Under the pieces are notes generated by a model. It worked only from the letters and a program-made list of their open reading frames with translations, ran no database searches and was not told the origin of the DNA. A program made the position numbers and the translations under genes. From a virus, in the IMG/VR virus record IMGVR_UViG_3300008116_003012, positions 55,007 through 119,006 of that record: a stretch of 64,000 nucleotides of DNA; one strand, given 5' to 3'. This document shows, piece after piece, positions 25,564 to 57,445 of this stretch (position 1 is the first letter of the stretch; every line of letters starts with the position of its first letter).

Positions 25564-26550
25564 ATGAACTTTACAGAAATACCATTTGAAAAAATTGTGC
25601 GTTTTGGACAACGAACAATGTTGACTCGCCCGTTGTTTTCCACAAGCTGGATACTAGGACGTTTTTGCAATTACAAATGTAGTTATTGTTGGCCTTATGC
25701 ACGTAGCGATCAACTTGATTATCAAAGTTTAGACGTATATAAGTGTACAGTAGATCAAATAAAAAGTCAAGCTCGTTTGAACGGATTTACCGAATTTCAT
25801 TGGAGTTTCAGTGGAGGAGAACCTACTGCTTACAAAGGGCTATTAGAACTAACCAAATATTTAGATGATGGTGTGCAGACTCCTTATCAAAGTGTACACA
25901 TGACTACCAATCTATCACCTGGATTAGAATGGTGGAAACGTTGGTCTAATGCTACTTCTATGTTAGCTAGACGCAGTATTACAGCAAGCCATCACGCAGA
26001 GTTTGCTAAAGAACAAGAGTTTGGTGATAAGATTTTACATCTAACAGACGAAAATGTTTTTGTCACTATCAATCAAGTAATGGTACCTGAGTTATTTTTT
26101 CAACTGTACGAAAAACTAGAACGCTTTCATCGAAGAGGAATAAACGTAACGTTGAAGCCGCAAAGCGATCCTACAGCTAGTCGTATAGTTGATGGGTACA
26201 CTGACGAAATGACGCAGTTGATGCGTACAGGTTTCCCGCAACAGTCACAAGGTGAAGATATATATCAAATATCACTGTTTGATAAAAGTAATGAAGAATA
26301 CCTATTTGATCAAGCTGAGAGATTCAACGCATTTGGATTTAATAAGTTTAAGGACTGGTCTTGCAATAGCGGATATCAAAGTGTTATTATAAGAAGTAAC
26401 GAAGTTAAAAGAAGTTATAGTTGTCATGACGGAGCATTAGGAACGTTAACAGAAGGGTTTAATCTTTTTAAATCTCCTAAGGTTTGTATAACTCCTACTT
26501 GTGTAAGTTCTGCAGACAGTAAAATACCAAAAATAAAAAATGAATATTGA
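25564..26550 (+). CDS. Radical SAM protein
   Basis: 328 aa. The CxxxCxxC cluster motif is CNYKCSYC (Cys35, Cys39, Cys42), and the SAM-binding GGEPT is at 86-90. Later Cys residues (CNSGYQ, YSCHDG, CITPTC) sit where SPASM/twitch auxiliary clusters bind in peptide- and carbohydrate-modifying enzymes. It generates a 5'-deoxyadenosyl radical; the substrate is unknown. The next gene, a methyltransferase-like one, overlaps its end by 11 bases, and another radical-SAM gene follows, so the three form one operon. Confidence 0.9.
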   Translation: MNFTEIPFEKIVRFGQRTMLTRPLFSTSWILGRFCNYKCSYCWPYARSDQLDYQSLDVYKCTVDQIKSQARLNGFTEFHWSFSGGEPTAYKGLLELTKYLDDGVQTPYQSVHMTTNLSPGLEWWKRWSNATSMLARRSITASHHAEFAKEQEFGDKILHLTDENVFVTINQVMVPELFFQLYEKLERFHRRGINVTLKPQSDPTASRIVDGYTDEMTQLMRTGFPQQSQGEDIYQISLFDKSNEEYLFDQAERFNAFGFNKFKDWSCNSGYQSVIIRSNEVKRSYSCHDGALGTLTEGFNLFKSPKVCITPTCVSSADSKIPKIKNEY

Positions 26551-27139
26551 CACAGAACATTTACATCATTGGATGCAGGCTATTAGGCAAAGTCCTGATC
26601 CTATGCGTACAATGGACGCCTTTTGGAGTGGACAGCTTCGCAGCAAAGAATGGCTTATAGATTGTTTAGATGAGCATGTACACCACAGTTCTAGTATAGA
26701 CATTCACGGAGGATGGGTAGGTGTACTGGCTAGTATGATTTTTCAAAGCAACATACCTGTTACTACTATTAGAAGTATAGACATTGATTCGTCGTGTGAA
26801 TCTATTGCCAACATGATGAACAGACAAGAATATTTGAATAATAAATTTAGAGCTGTAACTGCTAACATGTGTGAGATTCGTAGCGACGCTGATATTTCTA
26901 TTAACACTAGTTTTGAACACATATCTCAAGACGATTATGATTTATGGTTAAGCGGATTGAAGCACAACAGTTTAATAGTACTGCAAACAAATAATTACAA
27001 AATACCTGAGCATATTAGAATTTCTAAAAATTTAGAAGAATTTAAAGAACAAGCAGGTTTAGAAAAAGTTTTATATTCTGGAGAATTAGAGTTACCTTTA
27101 TATAAAAGATTTATGATTATAGGATATAAGAATGTTTAA
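26540..27139 (+). CDS. Class I SAM-dependent methyltransferase-like protein
   Basis: 199 aa Rossmann-like protein. A degenerate motif I (IDIHGGWVGVLASM) is followed by an acidic strand end RSIDIDSSCESIANMM, as in class I methyltransferases. A motif IV-like strand ISINTSFEHIS comes next. Similar small methyltransferases occur in marine phage islands; the acceptor is not known. It overlaps radical-SAM genes on both sides and probably acts on the same molecule. Confidence 0.65.
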   Translation: MNIDTEHLHHWMQAIRQSPDPMRTMDAFWSGQLRSKEWLIDCLDEHVHHSSSIDIHGGWVGVLASMIFQSNIPVTTIRSIDIDSSCESIANMMNRQEYLNNKFRAVTANMCEIRSDADISINTSFEHISQDDYDLWLSGLKHNSLIVLQTNNYKIPEHIRISKNLEEFKEQAGLEKVLYSGELELPLYKRFMIIGYKNV

Positions 27140-28223
27140 ATTTTCAGAACTACACGCAGTTCATTTAGAAATTACTAATAATTGTCAAGCAAAATGTCCT
27201 ATGTGTTCTAGGAACTACAGGGGAGGATTAGAAAATCCGTACATCAAAGTTAATGAATGGTCACTTGAAGATTTTTCTACAATCTTCAATCAAGAAGTAT
27301 TAGATCAATTAAAGAGTATTTTCTTTTGCGGAAATTTTGGAGATCCTATTATCAACAACGACCTAGCAGAAATGTGTGGGTACGCTACTAACGGAAATCC
27401 AAATTTACAAATAAGAATACATACTAACGGCGGAGCACGATCTAAAGAATGGTGGAGGTCATTGCCCGCAAAACTTCCTAGAAATCATTTTGTTATATTT
27501 GGGATTGATGGACTAGAAGATACTCATCACATTTACAGAGTTGGTACTAAGTATCAACAGGTTATCGATAATGCCAAAGCATTTATAGATGCCGGAGGGA
27601 TTGCAGAATGGGTCTTTATTAAATTCAAACATAACGAACACCAAGTAGAAGAAGCAAGGAAAAGAGCTAAAGAATTAGGATTCAAACTATTTACAGTTAA
27701 AAACAGTACTAGATTTTTAGAAGAAAAATTTAAAGTCCTTGATAAAAATGGAAACACTGATTATTACTTAGAACCTCCTACAAACAATCAAGTGACTTTA
27801 ATTTCACCTGATATGATTAAAAATTATAAGGTATGGGTTGATGATTCTAACATTGAATGTTACGTTCAACAAAATAGAGAAATATACATAGACGCATACA
27901 AAAATTTATTTCCCTGCTGTTTCCTTGCATCTACTCCTTATAATTATACAGAAGAAAATGACTTTACGTTCCCTGTAAGACAAGAAGTAAAAAAACAGTA
28001 TTCTAAATTAGTAGAATCGCTAGGCGGAATAGAAAATCTAAGTGCCACAAAGGTAGGTGTAAAAAATATACTAGAATCTAATTCTTGGCAAACTGTTTGG
28101 GATTATTACTGGAATGAATATAAACTAATTGTTTGTGCTAGAACTTGCGGAGTTAGTGCAAGCAAACCAATTTCAAAACCTAAAGATCAGTTCGTAGAAA
28201 GATCTAACCTTAAGGAAGAATGA
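27132..28223 (+). CDS. Radical SAM protein with SPASM-like C-terminus
   Basis: 363 aa. CxxxCxxC is CQAKCPMC (Cys18, Cys22, Cys25), right after a strand beginning HLEITNNC, a layout typical of SPASM-family maturases. The C-terminal part has CYVQQNREIYIDAYKNLFPCCF and CARTCG, likely ligands for an extra Fe-S cluster. The canonical GGEP is replaced by FCGNFGDPI. It ends convergent with, and overlapping by 14 bases, a glycosyltransferase-like gene. Confidence 0.88.
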   Translation: MFKFSELHAVHLEITNNCQAKCPMCSRNYRGGLENPYIKVNEWSLEDFSTIFNQEVLDQLKSIFFCGNFGDPIINNDLAEMCGYATNGNPNLQIRIHTNGGARSKEWWRSLPAKLPRNHFVIFGIDGLEDTHHIYRVGTKYQQVIDNAKAFIDAGGIAEWVFIKFKHNEHQVEEARKRAKELGFKLFTVKNSTRFLEEKFKVLDKNGNTDYYLEPPTNNQVTLISPDMIKNYKVWVDDSNIECYVQQNREIYIDAYKNLFPCCFLASTPYNYTEENDFTFPVRQEVKKQYSKLVESLGGIENLSATKVGVKNILESNSWQTVWDYYWNEYKLIVCARTCGVSASKPISKPKDQFVERSNLKEE

Positions 28224-29379
28224 TATCTCTAGAGTGAAGACTTAATAAATGATTTCTATTCCAGTCTAACACACTGTACATTTCTTTATAAAGACAGTGT
28301 AATTGATCGTTAGACAGGCTGTTAATGTAATCAATAAGTTTAAAAATCTTTAATAATCTTTCTGCATGATCAGATTCTTCATCGTAAGACTCGTCCCACC
28401 ATTTATCAAAAGTTTTAAACCCTAGTTCTTTCAAATACTGTAAAGTAAATGGGGCACCTATCATTATAAAAGGTGTTAGTGTAACCATAGAGTTAAATGT
28501 TTTTTCAGTAATTGTAGCAGTAGGTTGAAAAAATACTGATTCAGTAACTATTGCTGCAAACGAATCTTCAAAACTTTTTAAAAAGTTTTCTAAATTTCCA
28601 TCCCAAGTCCACGGAAAGTTTGCAATTTTAGGAAATTTATAATTTTCAATTACAATTTTATCAATCTTATTATCAATGAAAAAATCTGTTTGATTTAAAA
28701 TTTTATTTCCTTCTTTTAGATAGTACCAAGGTAAAGTTTTAAGCCAAGTGATATCTTCGCATATATTGTTACAGGAAAACGGCCAACTGTACTTCCCTGG
28801 CTTATCAGCTAGATAACACATTAGTAAGTGTCTATGATTAGTAAATCTATTTGCAGAACACCAAAACTTATATTTGATTTCATTTTTGGGCTTAAACAAT
28901 TCTGCGTTATACTTATAACCAATTGATTCGGTTTGATTTTGAAAATCTAAACACTGTAATGTTAAATTAGGATAATTTTGAAAAATATATTTTGTTGTAT
29001 TGTATTCACAACAATGAACAGTTATGCTAATTTCTTCTTCTCTAGCAAACTTATCTGCAACATCTAACACAGGAGTTCGCAATTCTGTATGAAGCTGGTC
29101 GTTGTATTCTAGTTCATTGTATTCTTTTACAGTTTTATCAGTATCTGAATAATATCTAAACCATTCAAACAAATATATTTCTATCCCAGTTTCTTTAAGT
29201 AAATGTTTGTTTAAATTGTGTTTAATGTTGTCTAAAGAAAATTCTTTTCCTTGTCCTATATAAACAATTGAAGGAACTTTAGTTCTTCCCAAAGCGGTAG
29301 ATTCAATTATTTCATTGTCTAGTACAATAGTAGAAGATAACTCAAAAGGAAAGTTATGATAATAAATGTTTTCCCGCAT
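28210..29379 (-). CDS. Glycosyltransferase-like protein
   Basis: 389 aa. The C-terminal third has the arrangement TESVFFQPTATITEKTFNSM...PFIMIGAPFTLQYLKELGF. This matches the E-x4-(S/T)EK(T/x)...P.I..G...(N/Y)L..LGF pattern of alpha-fucosyltransferase-like and related GT-B enzymes in marine phages. Conserved ends such as FDKWWDESYDEE are also typical. A relative at 50921 keeps the same order (EKTWKAIITSKPFLI). Donor and acceptor are unknown. It follows the amidinotransferase gene by one base. Confidence 0.6.
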   Translation of the reverse strand: MRENIYYHNFPFELSSTIVLDNEIIESTALGRTKVPSIVYIGQGKEFSLDNIKHNLNKHLLKETGIEIYLFEWFRYYSDTDKTVKEYNELEYNDQLHTELRTPVLDVADKFAREEEISITVHCCEYNTTKYIFQNYPNLTLQCLDFQNQTESIGYKYNAELFKPKNEIKYKFWCSANRFTNHRHLLMCYLADKPGKYSWPFSCNNICEDITWLKTLPWYYLKEGNKILNQTDFFIDNKIDKIVIENYKFPKIANFPWTWDGNLENFLKSFEDSFAAIVTESVFFQPTATITEKTFNSMVTLTPFIMIGAPFTLQYLKELGFKTFDKWWDESYDEESDHAERLLKIFKLIDYINSLSNDQLHCLYKEMYSVLDWNRNHLLSLHSRDIILP

Positions 29380-29380
29380 A

Positions 29381-30367
29381 TCAATGACTTCTAAATAAAT
29401 CTAATGTGACACAATGGAACCCGCCTCCTAGTGTACGTTGTTGTCTTGCTGGCAGCATTGCACATTCTATTTTGTGCTTCTCTAATTCTTTTCTAAGTTC
29501 GTGTTGATGATCTGGTATTGCCGCTAGATTAGGATTGACAGAAAAGATATTCATAGCAACCCATTTGCTACTGTTACAATAGCCAGGGTAGTGTGCGACT
29601 TCGCCAGGGTCAGGTGCCCATACAACATCCCAATTTTGCAACGGCTTTGGTAATTGTTCGACACTTTTTATCCTGCTGGGATTTAACAGCATTAATCCTT
29701 CTCTTAGTAATGTAATAGTACTGTCAATGTGCATGTAACTATAGACACCTTCTAGTGTCCATACACGCTTGTTACCTACTAGATTTTGTAGATATTCTGC
29801 ACCTTTTTTATTTCCGCTGTTGCTGACAAGATATATTAAGTCATCATTTACTTTTAAAACATTTGCAGCATCAAAACAAGGTTGTGTTTCATTTAATGCA
29901 AGAGTGTCTTTATCTCCTAAGCAATTTAGGTTGTATAATTCTTTATTGTAATTAATAGGTGCTTCAATATATTTTGCACCTAATCGCTCTAAAGGTTCAA
30001 AATGTTCATGCATAGCAAGATATTCTTTATGTCTTGCACGTAAAGGTTGCGGCGTTGCTAAAATTGTATCGTTATATACTATGACGCTGTCTCTAGGACA
30101 ATAATTGTAATAATTAGGTAACGGAGTGCGTTTTGGTCTTAATACTTCTACACTTTCTCCTTTAAGAAAGTTGCAAAATGTTTCTAAGTCTTCATTGGCT
30201 TCGTCTATTACTTGTTGAGGATATAATCCTTCAGGAATGTCACTAGAATCTTTTTTATCTGCGTAATTTACAACTCGAAGACTTACATCAAGTTTAGGTA
30301 TTCTTGCACCATCAGCAACACCTACAATAACTGTTTTAAGAGTATCCCACTCGTTTTTGCTTAACAT
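29381..30367 (-). CDS. Amidinotransferase (glycine/inosamine amidinotransferase family), copy 1
   Basis: 328 aa. Family enzymes move an amidino group from arginine to an amine through a Cys intermediate. The triad is visible: FDAAN (Asp166), MHIDST (His213) and GGGFHC (Cys319), plus the N-terminal block DTLKTVIVG. The length matches phage and bacterial relatives. A second copy at 33267 is highly similar (MHIDST, LGGGFHCVTLDL shared). Neighbouring sugar-nucleotide and aminotransferase genes suggest an amino-sugar acceptor. Its start has a GAGGT site. Confidence 0.9.
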   Translation of the reverse strand: MLSKNEWDTLKTVIVGVADGARIPKLDVSLRVVNYADKKDSSDIPEGLYPQQVIDEANEDLETFCNFLKGESVEVLRPKRTPLPNYYNYCPRDSVIVYNDTILATPQPLRARHKEYLAMHEHFEPLERLGAKYIEAPINYNKELYNLNCLGDKDTLALNETQPCFDAANVLKVNDDLIYLVSNSGNKKGAEYLQNLVGNKRVWTLEGVYSYMHIDSTITLLREGLMLLNPSRIKSVEQLPKPLQNWDVVWAPDPGEVAHYPGYCNSSKWVAMNIFSVNPNLAAIPDHQHELRKELEKHKIECAMLPARQQRTLGGGFHCVTLDLFRSH

Positions 30368-30426: not shown

Positions 30427-30840
30427 ATGCTTACACAAATTTTTTCAAAAGTAAACCCAGAAAAACTGTTACATTCTGTATATAGGCCCACTGTTAAGTC
30501 TAACAGAATAGACTTAGCACCTCCAGAACAGTTTTTGCAATTGTCAATAATCAATCCTTCACATGGAAAAAAATATGATAAGCACTATCATATATGGAAA
30601 ACTCCTTCATTTGATAAGACTATTGCACAAGAATCATGGGTTATAATATCTGGTTCAGTAAGAGTCAGCTTTTATGATACAGATAATCAATTACTACAAG
30701 AAGAAATAATAGGGCCTGGAGAGTGTTCTATGACTTTTGAAGGAGGTCATACTTACGAAATCCTTGAAGAAAACACTTCAATCTACGAATTTAAAACAGG
30801 TCCTTATAACGGAAGAGAAAATGACAAACAGTTTTTTTGA
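30427..30840 (+). CDS. Cupin protein of the surface-polysaccharide type
   Basis: 137 aa from the ATG at 30427; a TTG at 30415 is less likely. A single cupin barrel with the motifs HYHIWKTP and SWVIISGSVRVSFYD. The ending YEFKTGPYNGRENDKQFF is a tail I associate with cupins in LPS/capsule sugar clusters. It may isomerise or stabilise a sugar or acid intermediate. It overlaps the UDP-sugar dehydrogenase start by 20 bases. Confidence 0.75.
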   Translation: MLTQIFSKVNPEKLLHSVYRPTVKSNRIDLAPPEQFLQLSIINPSHGKKYDKHYHIWKTPSFDKTIAQESWVIISGSVRVSFYDTDNQLLQEEIIGPGECSMTFEGGHTYEILEENTSIYEFKTGPYNGRENDKQFF

Positions 30841-31585
30841 TAATAAAACAGTAGGTATAGCAGGCTACGGATTTGTTGGAAAAGCCACGCATCGAGGTAT
30901 TCTCAACGACATGCCTGTATTAATTCACGACCTACAAAGAAATACAAACTTATCTGATCTCCAAGATGCTAGTACAGTATTTTTCTGTGTACCTACTGAT
31001 AATCAAAATGATGTAAATCGTTTACTTAATGAGATTAAAAAATTAAAAGAAATTAATAAAGAATGTAAGATTATTATTAGAAGTACAATTCCCTTAGGAA
31101 CATCTAAACGTATAGAAGAACTAATACAAGACAAAATTATCTATATACCAGAATTTTTCCGCCAGCGCATTTGGGAAGAAGAGTGCGGTCGCAGACCATT
31201 GATAGTAGGTCACAACGGAATAAATGTCAAAGAGTGGATCGGAGACGATGACTTTTTAGAATGTTCCTTAGAAGAAGCAGAACTAATAAAAATGTTCAGC
31301 AATAATTTTGCTGCATTAAGAGTTGTCTTTGCAAATCATTTCTACGAGTTAGCTGAACAAAGTAATTGCAACTACGATGTAATTACAAAATTATTTTCTA
31401 AAGTCATGCATCCTGAATCCTATCTTGAAGTAAATGAAGATTTAAGAGGATTCGGAGGGAAGTGTTTGCCAAAAGATTTAGATTTTATAATCAACACTTT
31501 CAATCAATTAGGATTGTCTCAAACATTATTTGATTCTGTTAAGAAAGATAACGAACAATGGAAAATTACCGTAAGAGAATCTTAA
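30821..31585 (+). CDS. UDP-glucose/GDP-mannose dehydrogenase-like protein, short form
   Basis: The ATG at 30821 (MTNSFFDNKTVGIAGYGFVG) gives 254 aa; a longer frame from 30737 overlaps the cupin gene. It has the NAD-binding GYGFVG, the strand VFFCVPTD, RSTIPLGT, and the catalytic Cys block GFGGKCLPKD. The family oxidises the C6 alcohol of a nucleotide sugar to a carboxylate. At 254 aa it lacks most of the usual C-terminal sugar-nucleotide domain (full length about 390-450), a compaction also seen in other phage enzymes here. A decarboxylase-like SDR follows with a 28-base overlap. Confidence 0.85.
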   Translation: MTNSFFDNKTVGIAGYGFVGKATHRGILNDMPVLIHDLQRNTNLSDLQDASTVFFCVPTDNQNDVNRLLNEIKKLKEINKECKIIIRSTIPLGTSKRIEELIQDKIIYIPEFFRQRIWEEECGRRPLIVGHNGINVKEWIGDDDFLECSLEEAELIKMFSNNFAALRVVFANHFYELAEQSNCNYDVITKLFSKVMHPESYLEVNEDLRGFGGKCLPKDLDFIINTFNQLGLSQTLFDSVKKDNEQWKITVRES

Positions 31586-32460
31586 TAACTGGTGCTGCGG
31601 GTCTTATAGGTAGAGAACTTTGTAATAAGTTATCTCTCAAGCATCATGTTGTAGGAGTTGATAATAATTTTAGATTTAATGACTACACTCCAGAAAACTG
31701 CTACTATGTTAAGAAAGATTTAAAAGAATTTATAGCATCTGCTGACAATGACTTTGACTACGTATTTCACATGGCGGCTATAAATGGTACAAGTCATTTC
31801 TATGACATGCCTCTAAATGTATTAGAAAATAATATTACTACAGATTTAGAAATATTCAATTTTGCCGGAAAAAATAAAAACTGCAAATTAATATATGCCA
31901 GCAGCAGCGAAATTGTTGCAGATTCAAAAAACTTTCCTACGGCTGAAGAAACAGATGTTGTTATAAAAGACATACACAATTCAAGATGGAGTTATCGATT
32001 ACCAAAAATTGTATCTGAAAATTATCTATTCAACAGCAACTTAGATTTTTTAATTGTGAGATTTTTCAATGTCTACGGTGCTAACAGTACCAAAGGACAT
32101 TTTATAGGTGATATTTTAGAAAAAATAAATTCTAATGTATTTGAAATACATGGGTCTAACGAAACAAGATCTTTCTGTTATATAGATGATGCTATTACTG
32201 CACTGTTATCTATATACGAACAAGTCAGCAGAGAAGTAATCAATATAGGAGCACAGGAAGAAATATCTATTCTAGATGCTGCAAATCAAATTGCAGAGTG
32301 CATGGGTATTAAAGATCCTAACTGGAAAATAGTTCCTAGCAGATATGGCAGTGTTGATAGAAGAATTCCTGATATAACAAAACTTAAATTTTATTTTAAG
32401 CAATATAATCCTATATCTTTTAAACAAGGTATAGAGTTGATTCTAAAGTCTCGTCAATAA
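31558..32460 (+). CDS. Extended SDR, UDP-glucuronate decarboxylase/epimerase-like
   Basis: 300 aa with NAD-binding GAAGLIG (residues 12-18) and catalytic YRLPK (Y-x3-K). The active-site strand reads YASSSEIV: the S-E pair matches UDP-glucuronate decarboxylases (UXS, ArnA), whereas 4,6-dehydratases have T-D-E. The C-terminal DRRIPDITKLK also fits the decarboxylase signature RRKPDI. With the dehydrogenase upstream it could turn UDP-glucuronate into UDP-xylose or a 4-keto-pentose. The family assignment is firm, the exact reaction inferred. Confidence 0.82.
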   Translation: MENYRKRILITGAAGLIGRELCNKLSLKHHVVGVDNNFRFNDYTPENCYYVKKDLKEFIASADNDFDYVFHMAAINGTSHFYDMPLNVLENNITTDLEIFNFAGKNKNCKLIYASSSEIVADSKNFPTAEETDVVIKDIHNSRWSYRLPKIVSENYLFNSNLDFLIVRFFNVYGANSTKGHFIGDILEKINSNVFEIHGSNETRSFCYIDDAITALLSIYEQVSREVINIGAQEEISILDAANQIAECMGIKDPNWKIVPSRYGSVDRRIPDITKLKFYFKQYNPISFKQGIELILKSRQ

Positions 32461-33263: not shown

Positions 33264-33271
33264 TATTTATG
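33264..33271 (-). promoter_or_regulatory. Late promoter-like motif (CATAAATA)
   Basis: CATAAATA on the minus strand six bases before the ATG at 33257. It overlaps the last codons of amidinotransferase copy 2, so the oxygenase has its own start signal. Confidence 0.55.
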
Positions 33272-34253
33272 GCTTAGATCTAATTAAATCTAGTGTAACG
33301 CAGTGAAATCCACCGCCTAGTGTTCTTTCGTGACGCATTGGTAACATAGCACAATCTATTTTATATTTTTCTAATGCTTTTCTTAAAGGTTCTTGACTTT
33401 CTTCTACAACAATTAAGTTAGGATTAATCGAAAAAACGTTCATGTTCATCCATATGCTGGCATTGCAATAACCAGGATAATGTCCTATATCTATAGGCTC
33501 AGATGCCCAAATGTAATCCCAACTTTGTAACGGCTTAGGTAGTTGATCTATGCTTTTTATTCTGCTGGGGTTCAACAACATTAGACCTTCTCTAAGGAGG
33601 GCAATGGTGCTGTCAATGTGCATGTAACTATAGACACCTTCTACTAAATGTACTTTAGCATTGTTTCCTACTAACTCTTGTAGATAGGCAGCTCCTTGTT
33701 TATTGCCACTATTGCTGACCAAATAAAACAGATCTTGATTGCATTTTAAAACATTAGCTGCATCAAAACTAGCTGTAGTTTCTGTTAGTGCCAAGACATC
33801 TTTGTCTTGTACACAAGCTTCGTTGTATAGACTATCTGGATGGTCTGGTCTATTTTTAATATATCTAACTTCTGGATATTTTAAAAAGCAGTGTTCTAAG
33901 GCAAGATGTTCATTCTTTCTTGCTCTCAGCGGTTGAGGTGTTGCAAGTATTAAGTCATCATAGACTAATACGCCATCCCTTGGGCAATAGTTATAGTATT
34001 CTGGAATAACACCGTCGTCGGGTCTAAGAACTTCTATGTTTTCTTTTTTTAAAAAATCACAGAACACTTCTAAATCTTCATTGGCTTCATCTATAACTTG
34101 TTTTGGATAGAGTCCTGTTGGGATGTCATTTATGTCAGTGACATTTGCATAATTAACTGTTCTAAGGCTTAAATCTACTTTAGGAATAGCGGCGTTTGTT
34201 GCACTACCTACAATTACAGTTTTTAAAGGATCCCATTCATTTAAACTTAGCAT
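33267..34253 (-). CDS. Amidinotransferase, copy 2
   Basis: 328 aa, the same length and order as the gene at 29381: DPLKTVIVG, FDAAN (Asp164), MHIDST (His212), GGGFHC (Cys318). The two differ mostly in the central acceptor region (residues 110-160) and near the C-terminus. This suggests related donors but different acceptors, or a recent duplication under divergence. It is transcribed toward the 2OG oxygenase gene. Its ATG follows an AAGGAAA site. Confidence 0.9.
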   Translation of the reverse strand: MLSLNEWDPLKTVIVGSATNAAIPKVDLSLRTVNYANVTDINDIPTGLYPKQVIDEANEDLEVFCDFLKKENIEVLRPDDGVIPEYYNYCPRDGVLVYDDLILATPQPLRARKNEHLALEHCFLKYPEVRYIKNRPDHPDSLYNEACVQDKDVLALTETTASFDAANVLKCNQDLFYLVSNSGNKQGAAYLQELVGNNAKVHLVEGVYSYMHIDSTIALLREGLMLLNPSRIKSIDQLPKPLQSWDYIWASEPIDIGHYPGYCNASIWMNMNVFSINPNLIVVEESQEPLRKALEKYKIDCAMLPMRHERTLGGGFHCVTLDLIRSKP

Positions 34254-34267
34254 TTATCATTTTCCTT

Positions 34268-34275: not shown

Positions 34276-34280
34276 CATTT

Positions 34281-38122: not shown

Positions 38123-38128
38123 ATGTAT

Positions 38129-48983: not shown

Positions 48984-50181
48984 TATGCCAAGTTGGTCTT
49001 CTTAAAGAATTTATTTCTATAGCTTTAATTATTGATAAATCACCCACATGGGGTAGATCTAAAAATCCAGCTGCTGCTCTTGTAGAAAATGATAGTGTAA
49101 CATTTATATTCTTTTCTTTTAATTTGTTAATTATTTCATTTTCTTTATGTAACCTATAATATAAAGGTTTGAAAGAAGCAGTTCCTTCGTAGCAAAAAAT
49201 ATTTGATAGATTGATAAAAGTTTTTTTATCTTTATCTAGGTAATCTATAAGAGTATGTTCTCCTAAAAGATCTGCTTTTACAAAAGAGTAAGTTACACCT
49301 TCTTTTTTAGGAAAGTGTTCTTTCCAGTAATCTAAAGATTTGTCGTTGTAATCAAAAATAATAACTGAGCCTGTGTCTATTAAATCATGATATAATGTTC
49401 CACTTGCAGGAATAACAAGTTGTTCAAATTTTTCAGTTGAATTTAATGATCTATTACCCTCAGTGTTTTCTGTGTGTACAAAATTAACAGCACATTCGTA
49501 ATCTCTGTTATAGATCCAAGGTAAATTTTTTAAAAAGTCTGTTCTGTTTTCTGGATAGTAGTGACGTTTACTGTTTCTAAATGTATGATCAAAAACTAAA
49601 ACTTTTAGCTCTTTTTCAAATGCTATATTTAAGATATTCCATCCGTGGCATTTATGATTATATTTTTTTAAACTTTGCCCTGTAGAAACTTTTATAGGAG
49701 TATAATCATCGTGATAATTTTCTTTGCTTCTATTAGGCTCTATTTGTGTATGTTCAACACCTAATTCCATTTCTCCTATTTTAGGCATTCCAATTTGTCG
49801 ATATGTTTTAAGATTTATAATATAACACTGTTGATGTAACTCGTAATAAGCATCTTTTCTATCTAAAACATGTCCGCATAAAAAGAAGTCTTTATCAAAA
49901 AGTTCGTTAGCTTTTTCTGCAAAACTATTACCTAAGAATTCTGTTCCAGTACTGAAAACAATAGCATATTCGTAACCATCTGAAGCAGCAGCTTGCAATA
50001 GAATATCTTCATCTAATCCTTGATAAACATCAAACAGTTTTTCGTGTAGACTAGATATAGCAAAATCACTTTGATTTTTTATTATCTCTTTTGTAAAGTT
50101 GTCTTGGATCAATGATAGTCTATCTACTAGACAATAAACTAGTCTTTGAGTCTTACCTTTTTTTAATTTAATTATATTCAT
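48964..50181 (-). CDS. Two-domain protein: glycosyltransferase-like N-terminus, Rossmann-like C-terminus
   Basis: 405 aa. The segment EYAIVFSTGTEF, then FFLCGHVLDRKDAYYELHQQCYIINLKTYRQIGMPKIG, is typical of glycosyltransferase-like proteins of marine phages and bacteria. The strand-turn-acid VVFDHTFRNS and later DTGSVIIFDYNDKSLDYW suggest a second, Rossmann-like domain, possibly binding SAM or a nucleotide. No catalytic residue can be named with certainty. Overlaps the hydroxylase gene upstream by four bases. Confidence 0.5.
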   Translation of the reverse strand: MNIIKLKKGKTQRLVYCLVDRLSLIQDNFTKEIIKNQSDFAISSLHEKLFDVYQGLDEDILLQAAASDGYEYAIVFSTGTEFLGNSFAEKANELFDKDFFLCGHVLDRKDAYYELHQQCYIINLKTYRQIGMPKIGEMELGVEHTQIEPNRSKENYHDDYTPIKVSTGQSLKKYNHKCHGWNILNIAFEKELKVLVFDHTFRNSKRHYYPENRTDFLKNLPWIYNRDYECAVNFVHTENTEGNRSLNSTEKFEQLVIPASGTLYHDLIDTGSVIIFDYNDKSLDYWKEHFPKKEGVTYSFVKADLLGEHTLIDYLDKDKKTFINLSNIFCYEGTASFKPLYYRLHKENEIINKLKEKNINVTLSFSTRAAAGFLDLPHVGDLSIIKAIEINSLRRPTWHINNDWK

Positions 50182-50924
50182 TGTTGTTGAAAATATTGTT
50201 TTCTAAAACTTCTTGCCACTAACTCTACAAACTCATTAATTTTTTTATCTAGTCGACCATGGGCTATAATATGATATCTTGTTGTATTAGAAAAATTTAC
50301 TACACTGTGATAATTTCTAATATTAACTATAAAAGCCTTTCCTTCGTTAAACGGAACACACCCATGATTTTCTAATGTAAGATAACAATCTTCTGGGTGA
50401 ATAACTGCTAAATTTATCGGAACTCCAAATTTTAATGCATCAAAGTTTTCTTCGCCTGGCAGCTTTCCTGGCCGATCACTGTGAGGATTTATGTAGCCTC
50501 CAGGTTCTACAGCCATAATCCTAATTCTTCTATAACTGTCATATGGAAAGTTTTCCCAGAATGTTTTTATTGTTTTACATTTATCTGCTATCTCAGTCCA
50601 ATTATAAGGAACATCGTCCTCGTTAGTGTATCCATGATTGGTCCATGCACCAGTTGCTTCTACATTTATTCCGTGAATGCAAGCACTTTTCCATCCTTGG
50701 CTTTCGCTTTCCCTATGATTGACTATTTTGTCTTTACACTCTAGTATTTCTTTTTTCCAAGAATCTAAATCTATATTAACATCAAGTTCAAGCCAAGCAA
50801 AATCACTGCGATTCAATAACCAATTAGCTAATTCGTAGTCTGACATTTCCATGCTAGGCGGCGATGGTAATTTACTATTAAAAGTTTTGTTAGATAGATA
50901 GAAATTTTTAGCTTTAAATATCAT
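50178..50924 (-). CDS. Aspartyl/asparaginyl beta-hydroxylase family protein
   Basis: 248 aa. RRIRIMAVEPGGYINPHSDRPG holds the proximal His, and VNIRNYHSVVNFSNTTRYHIIAHG holds the distal His and the Arg for 2-oxoglutarate, the family signature. These enzymes hydroxylate Asp or Asn in proteins. It overlaps the flanking glycosyltransferase-like genes by four bases on each side, so its target may be a glycoprotein or fibre; that is inference. Confidence 0.8.
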   Translation of the reverse strand: MIFKAKNFYLSNKTFNSKLPSPPSMEMSDYELANWLLNRSDFAWLELDVNIDLDSWKKEILECKDKIVNHRESESQGWKSACIHGINVEATGAWTNHGYTNEDDVPYNWTEIADKCKTIKTFWENFPYDSYRRIRIMAVEPGGYINPHSDRPGKLPGEENFDALKFGVPINLAVIHPEDCYLTLENHGCVPFNEGKAFIVNIRNYHSVVNFSNTTRYHIIAHGRLDKKINEFVELVARSFRKQYFQQQ

Positions 50925-52143: not shown

Positions 52144-52773
52144 ATGCTTACTACTAACGGATTAATAAATTGGGAATCCATTATTTCAAATTTGGCAACT
52201 GTTCACGGTTCAATTCGTCATGTAGATCAAACCATTGATCCAACAAAAACAAATTTACAAACTTATCAAGAAATTATTAATAAAGGTCTACTGCCGTTTG
52301 AATTTAGTAGAACACCGTTTGTTGAGATGGTTAAGAATTATTTTGATCAAGGGCTAGATTTTACAAAAATAACCTTTCAAAATTTTTATCCAGATATAGA
52401 ACAGTATAATTCTGAGAATCATTTTTCAAAATCTATAGTAGATAAATTTGAAAATCTTATTGGATGTTCAGTTCAGGAATGTTGGATTAGCAAAGTTGAT
52501 GCATACTCAACTATACCTTTTCACAAAGACGAATTTGATCAAGAGAAAACGTGGATTGAATTAGAAAAGAAAAATTTAGTTAGATATATGGTATTCATAG
52601 ACAATCCTATAAAAGATCAAATTTTTATAGTCGGTGATAAAAAATATGAAAATGTACCTAAGCATACAGTAGTTAAATGGCCTACTACTAAAGAACTGCA
52701 TTCATTGATCAATAACAGTAACCGGCCAAATTACATTTTTCATTTCTTAGGATATCATTTAAATGAATACTGA
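52144..52773 (+). CDS. 2OG/Fe(II) oxygenase-like (HKD type)
   Basis: 209 aa. The N-terminus MLTTNGLINWESII matches the 38165 protein. Iron ligands: HKD in TIPFHKDEFDQ and a distal His in KELHSLI; the end strand IFHFLGYHL matches FLFHFVG. The substrate is unknown. It overlaps the kinase-like gene by 11 bases. Confidence 0.65.
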   Translation: MLTTNGLINWESIISNLATVHGSIRHVDQTIDPTKTNLQTYQEIINKGLLPFEFSRTPFVEMVKNYFDQGLDFTKITFQNFYPDIEQYNSENHFSKSIVDKFENLIGCSVQECWISKVDAYSTIPFHKDEFDQEKTWIELEKKNLVRYMVFIDNPIKDQIFIVGDKKYENVPKHTVVKWPTTKELHSLINNSNRPNYIFHFLGYHLNEY

Positions 52774-53443
52774 TAACTGGAATTACTACTATAAATTTAG
52801 TCAAGTAGGAATGAAGGGAATGTCCCAAACAACCTACGAGCCGTTAATCAATCCTGAAGGAACTGTTTTTTGTGCTAGTTTTAAATTAAACAGTGATTAT
52901 CATAAAGAAATGGGGCCGCGACCTTTATTCACCCAAGAAGTAGTAGATTGGTTCTTTACTAACGAAGTGAAAAATTTAGAACAGTTTTCTAATAAATCTT
53001 ACTGCCCAGAAGTACTCGATATAGATTATACTAATAAAAAAATTTTTATAAAATGGTATAAGCATACGTGTAACGATATGGTATATTCAGGCAATCCTTG
53101 GTCTAAACAATGGGTAGGTCAATTCAAAGAAATTATGATGGATTTAATTAATGAAGGATATTATAAGTTAACTATGTATCCCCATTGTCATTATGTTACT
53201 GATACCGGAGTTATGAAATCTATTGATTGGTACGGATGTCTTCCTAAAGATAATCCATTAGTTCCTAAAAATTGTATGGATGCTATTATTCATGACTCTG
53301 CTAAATTTAGATTAGAAGAAACTGGCACTGCAACTAACGGATATTACAACATGGAAACTATGTTTAAGAGAGGACTCGAAGAACATGTTCTGTGGGGGCA
53401 TCGCAATCTTAAATTTATCTATGATGAGATTTTTAAATCATGA
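52763..53443 (+). CDS. Kinase-fold (APH/Rio-like) protein, copy 1
   Basis: 226 aa. The motif CPEVLDIDYTNKKIFIKWY looks like the N-lobe hinge of small phosphotransferases. Further on, YKLTMYPHCHYVTDTGVMKSIDWYG sits where the catalytic loop and the metal-binding D of APH-type kinases would be. The canonical HxDxxxxN is degenerate, so it may be inactive or unusual. The 55535 gene is a paralogue (EILDIDYTNRKIFLKI, YKMSMHPSSYF). Function inferred from fold pattern only. Confidence 0.5.
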   Translation: MNTDNWNYYYKFSQVGMKGMSQTTYEPLINPEGTVFCASFKLNSDYHKEMGPRPLFTQEVVDWFFTNEVKNLEQFSNKSYCPEVLDIDYTNKKIFIKWYKHTCNDMVYSGNPWSKQWVGQFKEIMMDLINEGYYKLTMYPHCHYVTDTGVMKSIDWYGCLPKDNPLVPKNCMDAIIHDSAKFRLEETGTATNGYYNMETMFKRGLEEHVLWGHRNLKFIYDEIFKS

Positions 53444-53913
53444 AGATTTATATCTTAGGTAAATCGAGAGGGTTAGGATACGATCTTGGAGAACTATTTA
53501 AAGCTGATGGACATCAAGTAATAGGAATTGATCGTTCAACAGGTATTGACATTAAAATAGATTATCAAAATTTTTTACAAGACATAGAACCTGACAGTTT
53601 AGTCATTATTAATGCCTATGCCGATGGATCCCAAATTTCTGTACTAGAACAATTAATTAATAGAAAAAATAAAGTTGTAGTTATGGGATCTATAGCTGCT
53701 AGGTACCAAGATAGTTCTATGCTAGAATACAGTAAGAACAAAAAAGATCTAGAAGATTATTTCATGCACCAAGCTATAGAAACTAAAAAATCAGATCTAC
53801 TCATTTTAAATCTCACAGGTAAATCATATTTAAACAGCAAGTTAATTTACAATTCTATAAACTTTTGGTTACTAAATACTGATATAATAGCATTTTCTTA
53901 TAGGACCAAATGA
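53440..53913 (+). CDS. Short-chain dehydrogenase-like mini protein, copy 1
   Basis: 157 aa, shorter than the usual 250 for SDRs. It begins IYILGKSRGLGYDLG, the SDR cofactor loop (GxxxGxG type). VVVMGSIAAR is the strand with the catalytic Ser position, and YSKNKKDLED is the Y-x3-K pair. The C-terminal substrate domain is missing. The paralogue at 54937 keeps the same features. Both flank the fused hydroxylase and a 57-aa protein. ATGA overlap with the next gene. Confidence 0.72.
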   Translation: MKIYILGKSRGLGYDLGELFKADGHQVIGIDRSTGIDIKIDYQNFLQDIEPDSLVIINAYADGSQISVLEQLINRKNKVVVMGSIAARYQDSSMLEYSKNKKDLEDYFMHQAIETKKSDLLILNLTGKSYLNSKLIYNSINFWLLNTDIIAFSYRTK

Positions 53914-54761
53914 TGCAAACTGGAATAGTAAAATGGTTTAACAACTCTAAATCGTACGGATTAATAATTGCCGACAACGGTGAAGAAATTCCTGTTGTTA
54001 ATTACAGAGAGCATTGTTTGTTAGAAGGTCAAAAAGTTAAGTTTGATCTCAACAATCAAAATGAATCACCAGTTGCTGTAAATTTACAAATTGTAGATAA
54101 AGAATTTAGTAGACTAAAAGAAAAATCTTCAAAATATAAAGAACAAATATTGCACAATTATCCTAGAGTTTCTGTTTATGATAATGTGTTGTCTAACGAT
54201 TACTGCGACGATTTAATAAAGAGAAGTTTAGATCCTAGTTATCCAGGAAGGTACTTGTCAATGTCTGATCATAGGTCTGATTGTGAACACGATACACACG
54301 GGCAAGCTAACGATAGAAATATTCATAGAAGGATATTAAATGATTTTACCTACTCAGACTATGACATAATAGCTACAGCTTGTTCAGAAGCATTAGGTAG
54401 ACCTTATCATCTTATAGAGTCTGCTGATATTCTGTATTACGAAAAAGGTCATTATATGACTCCTCATCATGATTGGCCTTACGATCCTACTAAGTTAGAC
54501 TATTATAAAAAGGCAGGCACTAGAGATGCAGTAGCATTGATATATCTCAATGATAATTTTCAAGGAGGAGAAACATATTTTCCTAAATTAGATGTTACTA
54601 TTACTCCTAAAAAAGGCAGCATGTCAGTTTGGAATCACACTCAAGATTTAAATTTAGATTGGTCGTTAGTACACGAAAGCAAAGAAATTTTAGAAGGTGA
54701 AAAATTTGCTATTATTTTTTGTCTTAGCAGTTTGCCTAGACCTGAAAGTCGAGGAAATTAA
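53910..54761 (+). CDS. Cold-shock-domain / prolyl-4-hydroxylase-type oxygenase fusion
   Basis: 283 aa. Residues 1-62 form a cold-shock-like OB fold (GIVKWFNNSKSYGLI is the classic CSD start). Residues 85-275 form a P4H-type 2OG/Fe(II) oxygenase: HHD (His186, Asp188) in MTPHHDWP, GGETYFP, the distal His255 in LVHES and Lys265 for 2-oxoglutarate in GEKFAIIF. A nucleic-acid-binding domain joined to a hydroxylase suggests an RNA/DNA-linked or ribosome-linked substrate, which is inference. Overlaps the mini-SDR by four bases. Confidence 0.82.
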   Translation: MMQTGIVKWFNNSKSYGLIIADNGEEIPVVNYREHCLLEGQKVKFDLNNQNESPVAVNLQIVDKEFSRLKEKSSKYKEQILHNYPRVSVYDNVLSNDYCDDLIKRSLDPSYPGRYLSMSDHRSDCEHDTHGQANDRNIHRRILNDFTYSDYDIIATACSEALGRPYHLIESADILYYEKGHYMTPHHDWPYDPTKLDYYKKAGTRDAVALIYLNDNFQGGETYFPKLDVTITPKKGSMSVWNHTQDLNLDWSLVHESKEILEGEKFAIIFCLSSLPRPESRGN

Positions 54762-54763: not shown

Positions 54764-54937
54764 ATGAATCAACAAGAAGAAGAATTTTTTTTAAAAAAGT
54801 TTATGGAATTACAACAAGCTAATGCAGCTCTATATAAAATATTACTTGATCTCTATCAATTAGAAAATGTTAAAGAAACAGTAGATAAGAAAATGCCAAA
54901 CGGATTTTTAGACTTTGTAAGAAAAAATTTAATTTAA
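54764..54937 (+). CDS. Small acidic helical protein (57 aa)
   Basis: ATG at 54764, two bases after the hydroxylase stop; stop TAA overlaps the next ATG at 54937. The product is almost wholly helical with heptad-like leucines (FFLKKFMELQQANAALYKILLDLY) and a conserved-looking tail (MPNGFLDFVRK). It could be an adaptor, a partner of the fused hydroxylase, or a substrate peptide for island enzymes. No homologue recognised. Confidence 0.62.
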   Translation: MNQQEEEFFLKKFMELQQANAALYKILLDLYQLENVKETVDKKMPNGFLDFVRKNLI

Positions 54938-55563
54938 TGAAAATAGTAATTACAGGACATACACGAGGATTAGGCAAAGCCTTCTACGACTATTTTGTAA
55001 AAGACCCTTCTAACACTGTTATTGGTCTATCTAAAAGTCAAGGAGTTAATGTAGAGTCAACTGACACTGTTATTAATTTAGCAACAGGTTGTGATCTTTT
55101 TATTAACAATGCATACAGCGGCACTGCTCAAAATAGATTAGTTAAAAGACTAAACGGATTAGTGCCTATGATAGTAGTTTCTGGATCTCAGGGCGGATAT
55201 TTTAGTAACTTAATTCCAACAGAATATGGTCAACACAAAAAAGATCTAGCTGAACTGTGTCATATGATTTCGTTAGATAAAAACAGTACTACAAAAATAC
55301 TTCATTTAGATTTGTCTTGTTTAGAGGGCAACGAAGTTGATATTGATGATCCCAACAACATCAAATGCGATTCTATTACAGCGTTAAGTGATATAGTAGC
55401 TACTGTAGATTTTTGGATTAAACTTCCAACATTTAACAACGTTAGATTTAATTTTAAAATCACTGACCTGCTATATAATCAAATATCAACTAAGCTACAT
55501 ACCGGTGCAGAGTTAGACTGTTTATTAGAAAAAATTAAACAGGCTGCTGATAAATCAGCTTAG
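54937..55563 (+). CDS. Short-chain dehydrogenase-like protein, copy 2
   Basis: 208 aa with TGHTRGLGKAF (cofactor loop), LFINNAYSG (the NNAG-type strand), VVSGSQGG (Ser) and YGQHKKDL (Y-x3-K). It is a paralogue of the 53440 protein with a longer C-terminus. These small SDRs are common in marine phage islands, with unknown substrates. Its end overlaps the convergent kinase-like gene by 29 bases. Confidence 0.75.
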   Translation: MKIVITGHTRGLGKAFYDYFVKDPSNTVIGLSKSQGVNVESTDTVINLATGCDLFINNAYSGTAQNRLVKRLNGLVPMIVVSGSQGGYFSNLIPTEYGQHKKDLAELCHMISLDKNSTTKILHLDLSCLEGNEVDIDDPNNIKCDSITALSDIVATVDFWIKLPTFNNVRFNFKITDLLYNQISTKLHTGAELDCLLEKIKQAADKSA

Positions 55564-56239
55564 CCTTTTCCATAGTACTGTCTAAGAAGTTTGTTTTAAA
55601 AGTTTCAAACGTCAGTGTCTGTATTTTCCAGAACGATGTTAGTTCATCTGGATTAATTTTTAAAGAATCAAAAATAGGTTGTAGACTTTTTTGTCTATCC
55701 TTGCTGATATGACTCATCAGACTGCTCATAGTTATTTCTTCGTCTTTATCAGTATAACAAAAGAAATAATTTATGCCTTTCATTTTTCCATCAACAATAA
55801 AATAGCTACTAGGGTGCATGGACATTTTGTAAACACCTAATGCTTTATAACTTTTAATAATATCAAGCATTTGTTCTTCCCAATCTGGAAGTACTTGACT
55901 GTAATCTTTTCCTTGACATCCTGCTAGTTCCCACATGTCAGGTCCGTCTATTTTTAGAAATATTTTTCTGTTTGTATAGTCAATGTCTAGAATTTCTGGT
56001 ACATGCTCAGGATAGTGTTCACTTACTAGTTTAATAAACTCTACTTCACGTAACCATTTATATTCCATTAAGCTAGGATCAACCACTTCGTTTTTCCCAC
56101 CATGATATCCGTAGTCGTTATAGTACCATTGACAAAAAGTTTTTTTATCTTTGCTAATAAGACTTGTATAGATTAGATTATTTCTGCACAATCCTTTTTC
56201 AGGAACGTTATTATAGTAGTATTCGAATTCTGTATTCAT
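55535..56239 (-). CDS. Kinase-fold (APH/Rio-like) protein, copy 2
   Basis: 234 aa from the ATG at 56239 (MNTEFEYYYNNV), matching MNTDNWNYYYKF of copy 1; an ATG at 56266 lies upstream of the promoter. VPEILDIDYTNRKIFLKI and YKMSMHPSSYFIVDGKMKGINYFF parallel the 52763 gene, again with a degenerate catalytic loop. Late motif GTTAAATA four bases before the start. Confidence 0.5.
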   Translation of the reverse strand: MNTEFEYYYNNVPEKGLCRNNLIYTSLISKDKKTFCQWYYNDYGYHGGKNEVVDPSLMEYKWLREVEFIKLVSEHYPEHVPEILDIDYTNRKIFLKIDGPDMWELAGCQGKDYSQVLPDWEEQMLDIIKSYKALGVYKMSMHPSSYFIVDGKMKGINYFFCYTDKDEEITMSSLMSHISKDRQKSLQPIFDSLKINPDELTSFWKIQTLTFETFKTNFLDSTMEKAKLIYQQPV

Positions 56240-56243
56240 GAGA

Positions 56244-56251
56244 TATTTAAC
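56244..56251 (-). promoter_or_regulatory. Late promoter-like motif (GTTAAATA)
   Basis: GTTAAATA on the minus strand, four bases before the ATG at 56239; it lies one base away from the plus-strand motif. Confidence 0.5.
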
Positions 56252-56252
56252 A

Positions 56253-56260
56253 AATAAATA
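56253..56260 (+). promoter_or_regulatory. Late promoter-like motif (AATAAATA)
   Basis: AATAAATA four bases before the ATG at 56265. Only 25 bases separate the two divergent start codons. Confidence 0.5.
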
Positions 56261-56264
56261 ATGC

Positions 56265-56949
56265 ATGATTAAAGGAATTGGCGATAAGCCCTACATTAAC
56301 TTAGATCCTTACTTAGATATAGAAGGATTTAAAAGCCTGCATCCAGAGATTTCTAAAGGTATGGCGTTGGCTAGAGAATACGCTAAAGAAGGCACTTGGA
56401 TGGCGCCTGGATTTAAATGGGAAGACGCTAGTTACATAGTAGACTGGAAACCAATTTACAAAGCCTTTGACGAATATCAAAAACTGTCAGACGATCATCC
56501 TATTAAGATTGCTGGTAAAGATATTTTGCCCAGCAACTTTAAAGATTACAGACAACGTAATATTTCTAGTAGATTGGATTAATAATCTAGTAACTACAGG
56601 TGTCATCGATCAAATAGGCAGAGTTATAATTTTTTTATGCGATCATAATGGCAAAGCATTTGAACATAGAGATTTAGATGCCAAACACGGCATATTTGAA
56701 AATGGTCAATATACCGATCATAAAAATGAATTTATACACATACGCCCGAGAACTAAGAGAGGATTTTATGTTAGAGATTCAGAAACTGAAAACAAATTTT
56801 ATATGAACGGTCATGCATCATTCTGGAATGATCAAGATTGGCATGGAGGAGAATCTTCTAAAGAACAGGAATACGGTGTTAGAATTGACTGTGTATTCTC
56901 AGAAGATTTTAGAAAACGCTTAGGCATTGATCACCTAAACAACTATTAA
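56265..56949 (+). pseudogene. 2OG/Fe(II) oxygenase-like gene split by a frameshift
   Basis: Two frames together encode one oxygenase-like protein. The first runs from ATG 56265 to a stop at 56582 (105 codons, through NFKDYRQR). The second, one frame later, continues NVIFLVDWINNLV to TAA 56949. The second part holds HRD (FEHRDLD) as iron ligands, the distal His in DWHGGESS and an Arg in YGVRIDCVF, as in the 38165-type enzymes. A net one-base change near 56540-56570 separates them. It could be decay, a sequencing error, or programmed shifting; the joined product would have about 228 aa. Confidence 0.7.
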
Positions 56950-56950
56950 T

Positions 56951-57445
56951 ATGCAACTTATCGGAAATTATAAAACTTGGGTTGATCCGCAGTGGTTTAA
57001 ATTAACAACAGAATTACCTGGAAAGCCTAGACCCGATTTTAACAAGTTATTAAATAGTTTTGAAGAAGAACAGTATCAAATAGCTCAAAATGTAGGTTAT
57101 GATTTTTCTAAGCCTCTATGGACTATCTACGAAAAAGATGATATTGTTATAGACATTAATCCGCCTTGGTGTTCTGGAAAAGTAACTTGGTGGATAACAA
57201 AATTAATGCCAGGACAATTTATGCCCATGCATTCAGATCCGTTTACTCATGAATCTAATGTTAAAAGATATTGGATGCCCCTTATGGACTATGAGCCCGG
57301 ACATGTCTTTATCTACAAAGGCGAAATGCTTAAAGATTATAAACTAGGGGACTTATATCTTTTTGACAATGCTACCGATTTACACGGTGCTGCCAATATA
57401 AGTTACTCCCCTAGAATAATGCTTCAGATATCTGAATATCTTTAA
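56951..57445 (+). CDS. 2OG/Fe(II) oxygenase-like protein (HSD type)
   Basis: 164 aa. GQFMPMHSDPFTHE carries the HxD, ATDLHGAANISYSPRIMLQISEYL the distal His and Arg. The frame around this motif resembles the 34281 enzyme (GQYIPLHSDKYE; QHAFYNFSKQNRYSLQITG). It is the last gene of the island and ends one base before the convergent fibre gene. Confidence 0.73.
   Translation: MQLIGNYKTWVDPQWFKLTTELPGKPRPDFNKLLNSFEEEQYQIAQNVGYDFSKPLWTIYEKDDIVIDINPPWCSGKVTWWITKLMPGQFMPMHSDPFTHESNVKRYWMPLMDYEPGHVFIYKGEMLKDYKLGDLYLFDNATDLHGAANISYSPRIMLQISEYL

Follow-up and report, generated by a model that had tools for sequence, protein, structure and literature searches.

A conserved radical-SAM kernel within a fibre-side island of modifying enzymes in a large uncultured virus

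A 32-kb island of about 40 soluble modifying enzymes adjoins a tail-fibre gene in a large, uncultured virus with a bacterial host. We describe its gene content, its conservation in related viruses and bacteria, and the readings that these features support. The window, that is, the whole stretch of DNA analysed, is the right 64 kb of IMG/VR virus record IMGVR_UViG_3300008116_003012, which totals 119,006 bases; the island spans window positions 25564 to 57445, and genes are named by their first coordinate (Table 1). Coding sequence accounts for 98.5% of the island. A megablast search of 50,697 phage records with positions 25000-49000 reveals no near relative. The nearest relatives of the viral DNA polymerase, from jumbo phages such as PA5oct and Phosso, stand at only 46-50%, and for this reason we name no host.

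Central to the island are nine radical S-adenosylmethionine (rSAM) proteins. This is the number given in an earlier reading made from the sequence letters (the original prediction); all nine score above the Pfam Radical_SAM cut-off, all lie within 25564-48214, and no further protein reaches that cut-off elsewhere in the 119-kb record. Four aligned members share CxxxCxxC, GGEP, and three further invariant C-terminal cysteines, and these extra cysteines are of the SPASM/twitch kind. Two rSAM proteins, 39268 and 46946, are of the twitch type with the extra cluster domain N-terminal (NF033640, 406.8 and 319.7 bits against a cut-off of 170). Known SPASM/twitch enzymes are largely peptide-modifying, with exceptions such as BtrN. 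More specific identities were rejected: 36227 as a KedN5-type B12 rSAM C-methyltransferase (NF033712, 210 bits against a cut-off of 700), and viperin (pVip) with a role in defence (best NF038283 score 53.8 bits, partial, against a cut-off of 180).

A scan with the twitch rSAM 39268 recovers 98 related IMG/VR loci; 80 were kept, and 47, including the window, are non-redundant at 95%. Conservation was counted over the 31 loci that have at least 6 kb on both sides. Seven genes (25564, 26540, 27132, 39268, 46045, 46946, and 48276) are present with their strand kept in 26-31 of these 31 loci; we refer to them as the kernel, whose core recurs in dozens of related freshwater viruses. The density of rSAM genes is above chance, with 6-16 in all 28 records examined, and many cassettes differ between relatives. 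The kernel methyltransferase 26540 is upheld by its predicted fold, whose top Foldseek matches are mostly class I methyltransferases; given that fold, a match of its profile to a haemagglutinin sequence (E 0.002) was dismissed as chance. Among GenBank phages, the kernel genes searched (26540, 27132, 39268, and 46946) have best matches at most 28% identical, and the same holds for 43949.

Fibre genes had been predicted at both edges of the island. The right edge is indeed an Mtd_N fibre, but the left edge is not a fibre: the nearest one on that side (1640-8800) is 17 kb off, and left of the island lie 24969, translation initiation factor IF-1, unassigned genes, a metallophosphoesterase, a ClpP-like protease, and a DNA ligase. 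Relatives bear out the right-hand association, since the gene set is not scattered: kernel content and strand are kept, and the fibre stands on the same side. Mtd_N fibres occur in 21 of the 28 records. In each of the 18 relatives' records tabulated, one lies downstream of 39268 at a distance of 4-33 kb; in 17 of them it is encoded on the opposite strand. That tabulation leaves out the window and its near-identical relative L012, takes the nearer of two fibres for the record of L067, and holds 19 loci quoted as 18; because L015/L016 and L033/L034/L035 are near-duplicates, the independent cases are fewer than 18. By contig-range arithmetic, six of the seven records without Mtd_N extend no further than 17 kb on the fibre side. 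A diversity-generating retroelement, suggested by the Mtd_N domain, was rejected because the record, possibly incomplete, holds no reverse transcriptase (RVT_1). A collagen-like fibre as the target of prolyl hydroxylation was also rejected, as neither 57446 nor 1640 contains Gly-X-Y runs.

The forecast of late-type promoters is borne out by an ATAAATA motif sharply positioned ahead of leader genes. Over 37 relatives and the window, 31 of the 163 genes that open a strand run have the motif starting 8-18 nt upstream of the ATG (usually 11-12), versus 2 of 506 other genes (Fisher p 3e-18, an optimistic value because the loci are related to one another). Window leaders in which it ends a few bases before the ATG are 32454, 34775, 36227, and 50921 on the minus strand and 48276, 52144, and 56265 on the plus strand, and this close placement recurs across relatives. 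The strict form TATAAATA is rarer than chance within the window (3 observed, 9.1 expected); it lies 15 nt ahead of the ATG of 48276 and 46 nt ahead of that of the fibre 57446. A sigma-70 scan of the island yields no more sites than shuffled sequence. In T4, late promoters start transcription about twelve bases after the A; at that distance, the late mRNAs of the island would start at the ATG, and are thus probably leaderless.

Leaderless late mRNAs invite the proposal that the enzymes modify ribosomes or RNA late in infection, in concert with the phage IF-1. The adjacency of IF-1, the cold-shock domain on the 53910 oxygenase, and the promoter placement itself are in keeping with such a target. 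Yet most of the enzymes carry no RNA-binding signature, no family of rRNA enzymes was matched, and IF-1 is found only in relatives with a common left flank; we regard this proposal as very improbable.

Around the kernel lies a set of accessory genes of sugar type: an NDP-sugar dehydrogenase, an epimerase, a WbuC-like cupin, and the predicted aminotransferase, which is a DegT protein (34775) in a short 196-aa form, resembling a LegC/PseC fragment. The two amidinotransferases of the original prediction are 67% alike, and both keep the FDAAN, HxDST, and GGGFHC motifs. In a test of membership, the profile matches StrB1 (1bwd, E 4e-102) ahead of AGAT (E 2e-62), with FDAAN, HIDST, and GGGFHC present, and the pair is strongly predicted to be of the inosamine-phosphate (StrB1) type. 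The cassette 29381-38122 is common in full to L012, in part to relatives L013 and L014, and in part to Synechococcus phage S-SCSM2R; amidinotransferases occur in 4 of the 80 relatives, and most sugar genes in 3-4. By its families, the cassette would perform chemistry resembling that of nucleotide sugars or guanidino sugars. An analogy to streptidine (StrB1, DegT, kinase, and the twitch rSAM BtrN) offers no more than a lead; the match of BtrN itself to the rSAM profile is weak (E 1e-4).

Such a cassette raises the question of whether the enzymes make or modify a glycan of the host surface, lipopolysaccharide (LPS) or capsule, during infection and in this manner block superinfection. The two predicted kinase-fold proteins (52763 and 55535) stand, with a pLDDT of 91 and matches to kinases and to WbdD, and a WbdD-like fold would suit glycan work. 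Also in its favour, the S-SCSM2R cluster combines DegT and an amidinotransferase with annotated glycosyltransferases, Rhizobiales homologues of 26540 stand alone, one of them, by eye, among envelope-type genes, and a host-glycan role has been proposed for the host-recognition clusters of pelagimyophages (PMC7029224). Several features point the other way. The three glycosyltransferases predicted in the island (28210, 48964, and 50921) find no support, with no glycosyltransferase match in Pfam, PHROGs, or PDB profiles, or in Pfam searches with their homologues; no flippase, transporter, or membrane glycosyltransferase was recognised; late-type promoters would act late for exclusion; and sugar genes are rare among relatives, whereas the rSAM kernel is constant. 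A membrane-like segment occurs in 1 of 38 listed island proteins versus 11 of the 72 remaining open reading frames (ORFs) of the record; the 37 proteins that have none fit a cytosolic target, for example a virion protein. We consider a host-glycan role fairly unlikely.

The 2-oxoglutarate (2OG) oxygenases are the other abundant class, and the predicted total of about twelve holds. Six are assigned by family or profile (34266, 42343, 48276, 50178, 53910, and, below threshold, 56951) and the others by motif: HxD...H is present in the aligned family of 38045, 38719, and 52144, and motif alone underlies 32454, 35437, and 56467. The protein 38719 has no match in the 50,697 phage records. The small protein 54764, next to the cold-shock oxygenase 53910, belongs to a family of 57-64 aa with the pattern FYxxKFMExQxxN. 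Its members are free proteins adjoining 2OG or rSAM genes in the window and 14 relatives, and in three near-identical relatives (L033-L035) they form the C-terminal domain of the 53910 homologue. This fusion suggests that the small protein partners the oxygenase, more in the manner of a docking domain than of a precursor peptide.

The distinction matters to a reading in which the island makes a diffusible compound or a peptide-derived cofactor, either aminocyclitol-like or like a ribosomally synthesized and post-translationally modified peptide. SPASM/twitch rSAMs, inosamine-phosphate-type amidinotransferases, a relative of B12-rSAM methyltransferases, a short DegT, and a conserved small protein within the island are the parts that such a product might require. 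Against this, the small protein is fused to an oxygenase in some relatives and present in only 17 of 80, and no peptidase or exporter was recognised. A diffusible product is, in our view, improbable.

Parts of the kernel extend beyond these viruses. A profile of 26540 finds bacterial homologues, and five Bdellovibrionota loci (L100, L119, L162, L175, and L177) carry orthologues of 25564, 27132, and 39268 together, three of them with 26540 as well, at 31-56% identity to the phage kernel genes. One of these clusters is part of a 936-kb contig, on which murA lies about 13 kb from it. A homologue of rSAM A occurs in 15 of 144 genomes of the Bdellovibrionota class, beside 27132 in about half of the loci. 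The phage sequences of 39268 group in a single clade, separate from the cellular sequences (support 95/87), which marks the phage kernel as an old resident. Some "bacterial" matches from metagenome-assembled genomes (MAGs), L114 and probably L096 and L170, look like binned phage contigs and were not counted as chromosomal. L114/L176 (MAG "Rickettsiales MED657") is a marine contig on which a tail fibre stands beside many tandem rSAM genes; it is apparently a phage contig binned as bacterial. In Vibrio phage K566 (L092), several divergent twitch-like rSAM genes form a cluster flanked by nicotinamide-nucleotide genes on one side and ribonucleotide reductase on the other.

These observations bear on another account, in which a hotspot has gathered auxiliary genes that are unrelated and share no pathway. 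As that account would have it, the island has a low GC content (0.30-0.35, below the 0.37-0.43 of the outer flanks), making it AT-rich, and many of its cassettes vary among relatives. The kernel, however, keeps its content and strand over diverse relatives, and bacterial chromosomes carry the 25564-27132-39268-26540 set as well; a mere collection is decidedly improbable.

The original prediction knew of no described phage system with this exact combination, which is too strong: Campylobacter phages CP220/CPt10, Aeromonas phage 332-Vera, and S-SCSM2R carry comparable clusters, and the island is a variant of an already known, though unexplained, type. CP220/CPt10 (Firehammervirus) have five clustered rSAM genes and an AGAT/StrB-like amidinotransferase in an interchangeable module of ten to twelve genes, placed in CP220 between the baseplate lysozyme and a tail fibre (PMC2853527). 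With nine rSAMs and two amidinotransferases, the island shares the combination of at least five clustered rSAMs and an amidinotransferase. It differs in sequence: the amidinotransferases are only 26% alike, the rSAMs reach 22-35% over short stretches, CP220/CPt10 show no match to the kernel methyltransferase, and no 2OG set is annotated in the stretch compared. Close common descent was therefore rejected, given this partial rSAM similarity and a kernel methyltransferase absent from phage records. By its description, the large phage 332-Vera also resembles the island: many rSAM genes (eight, in a structural cluster) stand among its genes for tail fibres and structural proteins. It belongs to the Chimallinviridae, and the portion of its description used here mentions neither an amidinotransferase nor a 2OG set (PMC12390700). 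S-SCSM2R matches the cassette within a few genes (short DegT 53%, AspH-like 2OG enzyme 39%, StrB1-like amidinotransferase 57%, and an rSAM) but has five annotated glycosyltransferases, no kernel, and no fibre annotated within the 25 kb compared. The accounts of these three clusters, in the parts consulted, establish no function.

Pelagimyophage host-recognition clusters, which lie between VrlC and gp14 with tail fibres, are hypervariable fibre-side islands with LPS-type genes and rSAM cassettes and are rich in glycosyltransferases; for the freshwater group the authors report no rSAM (PMC7029224). The present island has one fibre edge and no confirmed glycosyltransferase; the phage collection holds no close match to its kernel. 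The Bdellovibrionota operon resembles the island in having 25564, 27132, and 39268 orthologues side by side, but is cellular and forms a separate clade.

Among the remaining genes, the predicted nitroreductase, 41697, has a match, though a weak one. The flanks hold further features. IF-1 is full-length and conserved among relatives with the same left flank, at least eight distinct ones, and in several relatives a conserved protein of about 63 aa (L017:2298-2489, minus strand) lies left of the island; by eye it resembles chlamydial histone-like Hc1, and it has no NCBIfam match. To the right, window positions 62843-63970 (minus strand) encode a Ro/TROVE-type RNA-binding protein (PHROG 850), a type common in large phages. 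Outside the window, record positions 8653-9516 (minus strand) encode a QueE-like rSAM protein, matched by PHROG alone (PHROG 2076), hinting at 7-deazaguanine DNA modification in the phage.

Table 1. Genes of the island and its edges (window coordinates; rSAM, radical SAM; SDR, short-chain dehydrogenase/reductase; AF2, AlphaFold2)
Coordinates	Strand	Assignment	Evidence
24585..24803	-	Translation initiation factor IF-1, near left boundary	TIGR00008 97 bits, cut-off 61
24969..25523	-	Conserved left-boundary gene, not recognised as fibre	
25564..26550	+	Kernel rSAM A	Pfam 37.6 bits; CxxxCxxC and C-terminal auxiliary Cys set; 26/31 relatives; Bdellovibrionota homologues 45-52%
26540..27139	+	Kernel methyltransferase, class I SAM fold	AF2 pLDDT 91; Foldseek E 7e-10; 30/31 relatives
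27132..28223	+	Kernel rSAM B	Pfam 34.9 bits; 30/31 relatives
28210..29379	-	389-aa protein, paralogue of 50921	No family match
29381..30367	-	Amidinotransferase 1, StrB1 type	Profile to 1bwd E 4e-102; 57% to Synechococcus phage S-SCSM2R
30415..30840	+	WbuC-like cupin	TIGR04366 30 bits, below cut-off 42
30737..31585	+	Short NDP-sugar dehydrogenase	UDPG_MGDP_dh 57 bits; TIGR03026 85 bits (below cut-off)
31558..32460	+	NAD-dependent sugar epimerase/dehydratase	PF01370 114 bits
32454..33257	-	2OG-like	Motif only; 47% to 35437
33267..34253	-	Amidinotransferase 2, StrB1 type	phmmer to 1bwd E 1e-65
34266..34778	+	Asp/Asn beta-hydroxylase-like 2OG enzyme	PF05118 25.9 bits; 39% to S-SCSM2R
34775..35365	-	Short DegT/LegC-like aminotransferase	PF01041 63.9 bits; 53% to equally short S-SCSM2R gene
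35437..36243	+	2OG-like, paralogue of 32454	Motif only
36227..38122	-	B12-binding rSAM, relative of KedN5-like C-methyltransferases	Pfam rSAM and B12-binding
38045..38722	+	2OG-like, HxD...R...H family	Alignment
38719..39264	+	2OG-like, same family as 38045	Alignment
39268..40686	+	Kernel twitch rSAM C	NF033640 407 bits; 98 IMG/VR relatives
40686..41684	+	rSAM, 43% to 43949	Pfam 46 bits
41697..42305	+	Nitroreductase-like	PF00881 E 0.003
42343..43398	+	TauD-type dioxygenase	PF02668 36.7 bits
43398..43994	+	Conserved 198-aa protein, no assigned family	Alignment
43949..44971	+	rSAM with auxiliary Cys set	Pfam 44.7 bits
44958..46052	-	rSAM D	Pfam 48.8 bits; 17/31 relatives
46045..46953	-	Kernel rSAM E	Pfam 48.7 bits; 30/31 relatives
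46946..48214	-	Kernel twitch rSAM F	NF033640 320 bits; 30/31 relatives
48276..48983	+	Kernel beta-hydroxylase-like 2OG enzyme	Profile to solved beta-hydroxylase 7v4f E 7e-13; 31/31 relatives
48964..50181	-	405-aa protein	No family match
50178..50924	-	Asp/Asn beta-hydroxylase-like 2OG enzyme	PF05118 30.6 bits
50921..52102	-	393-aa protein, paralogue of 28210	No family match
52144..52773	+	2OG-like, same family as 38045	Alignment
52763..53443	+	Kinase-fold protein	AF2 pLDDT 91; Foldseek top match WbdD E 4e-6
53440..53913	+	SDR/RmlD-like fragment (weak)	PF04321 E 0.002
53910..54761	+	Cold-shock domain fused to prolyl-4-hydroxylase-type 2OG oxygenase	PF00313 and PF13640 above cut-off
54764..54937	+	Conserved small protein, 57 aa	Not in the gene set of the original prediction
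54937..55563	+	SDR-like, paralogue of 53440	
55535..56266	-	Second member of kinase-fold family	Alignment
56265..56949	+	Broken 2OG-like gene (frame break or assembly error)	ORFs 56265-56582 and 56467-56949; intact, about 270 aa, in relatives
56951..57445	+	Asp/Asn beta-hydroxylase-like	PF05118 19.4 bits, below cut-off 22.6
57446..59533	-	Mtd_N tail fibre, right boundary	PF18454 53.9 bits; PHROG tail fibre 9729

The original prediction read the island as building a decoration on virion fibres or another late target. Its non-scattered relatives, fibre synteny, and late promoters survive; the two-sided fibres and the glycosyltransferases find no support, and the fibre as substrate stays a proposal. 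Enzyme families, kernel conservation, fibre synteny, placement of the promoter motif, and the near-absence of membrane proteins are observed, and from them we tentatively favour, at somewhat less than even confidence, a late-expressed, cytosolic, multi-step pathway of covalent modification, whose likeliest substrate would be a virion protein and in particular the Mtd_N fibre. In this scheme, the kernel (rSAMs A, B, C, E, and F, often D, with the class I methyltransferase and the beta-hydroxylase-like 2OG oxygenase) would install a common core modification. Exchangeable cassettes would tailor that core, here with two StrB1-type amidinotransferases, the NDP-sugar dehydrogenase, the epimerase, DegT, the B12-rSAM, extra 2OG enzymes, and kinase-fold proteins. 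The decoration may alter attachment to the host or shield the virion. The enzymes probably belong to one pathway; for the substrate, a virion protein is the best guess because of the lack of membrane parts, the late expression, and the fibre neighbour. We count in its favour the rSAM clusters among structural genes in CP220 and 332-Vera and the fibre neighbour on L114/L176.

Several points weigh against this scheme. In large phages, the DNA beside fibre genes is a general hotspot for insertions, so that synteny can arise with no functional tie. One record, G007, extends for about 50 kb to the side where the fibre would lie and shows no match to Mtd_N, and no glycosyltransferase is confirmed in the island. 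Part of the kernel resides on Bdellovibrionota chromosomes where no fibre was recognised nearby, which indicates that the kernel is not intrinsically a fibre system. Finally, that there is a single pathway, that it acts on protein, and that this protein is the fibre are inferred rather than observed. A bolder version would have the island encode a previously undescribed post-translational decoration, assembled step by step by at least five rSAMs, 2OG hydroxylases, and a methyltransferase, tailored by exchangeable guanidino-sugar chemistry, and put late on phage fibres by leaderless operons, through a pathway that predatory bacteria share; we judge it unlikely.

Since 2010, clusters of multiple rSAM genes in the structural regions of phages have been described as highly unusual, with no function attached. 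In the present island, a constant kernel is separable from variable cassettes and recurs in dozens of viruses and, as a small operon, in Bdellovibrionota. Thus, a handful of named genes can be co-expressed and their product sought directly.

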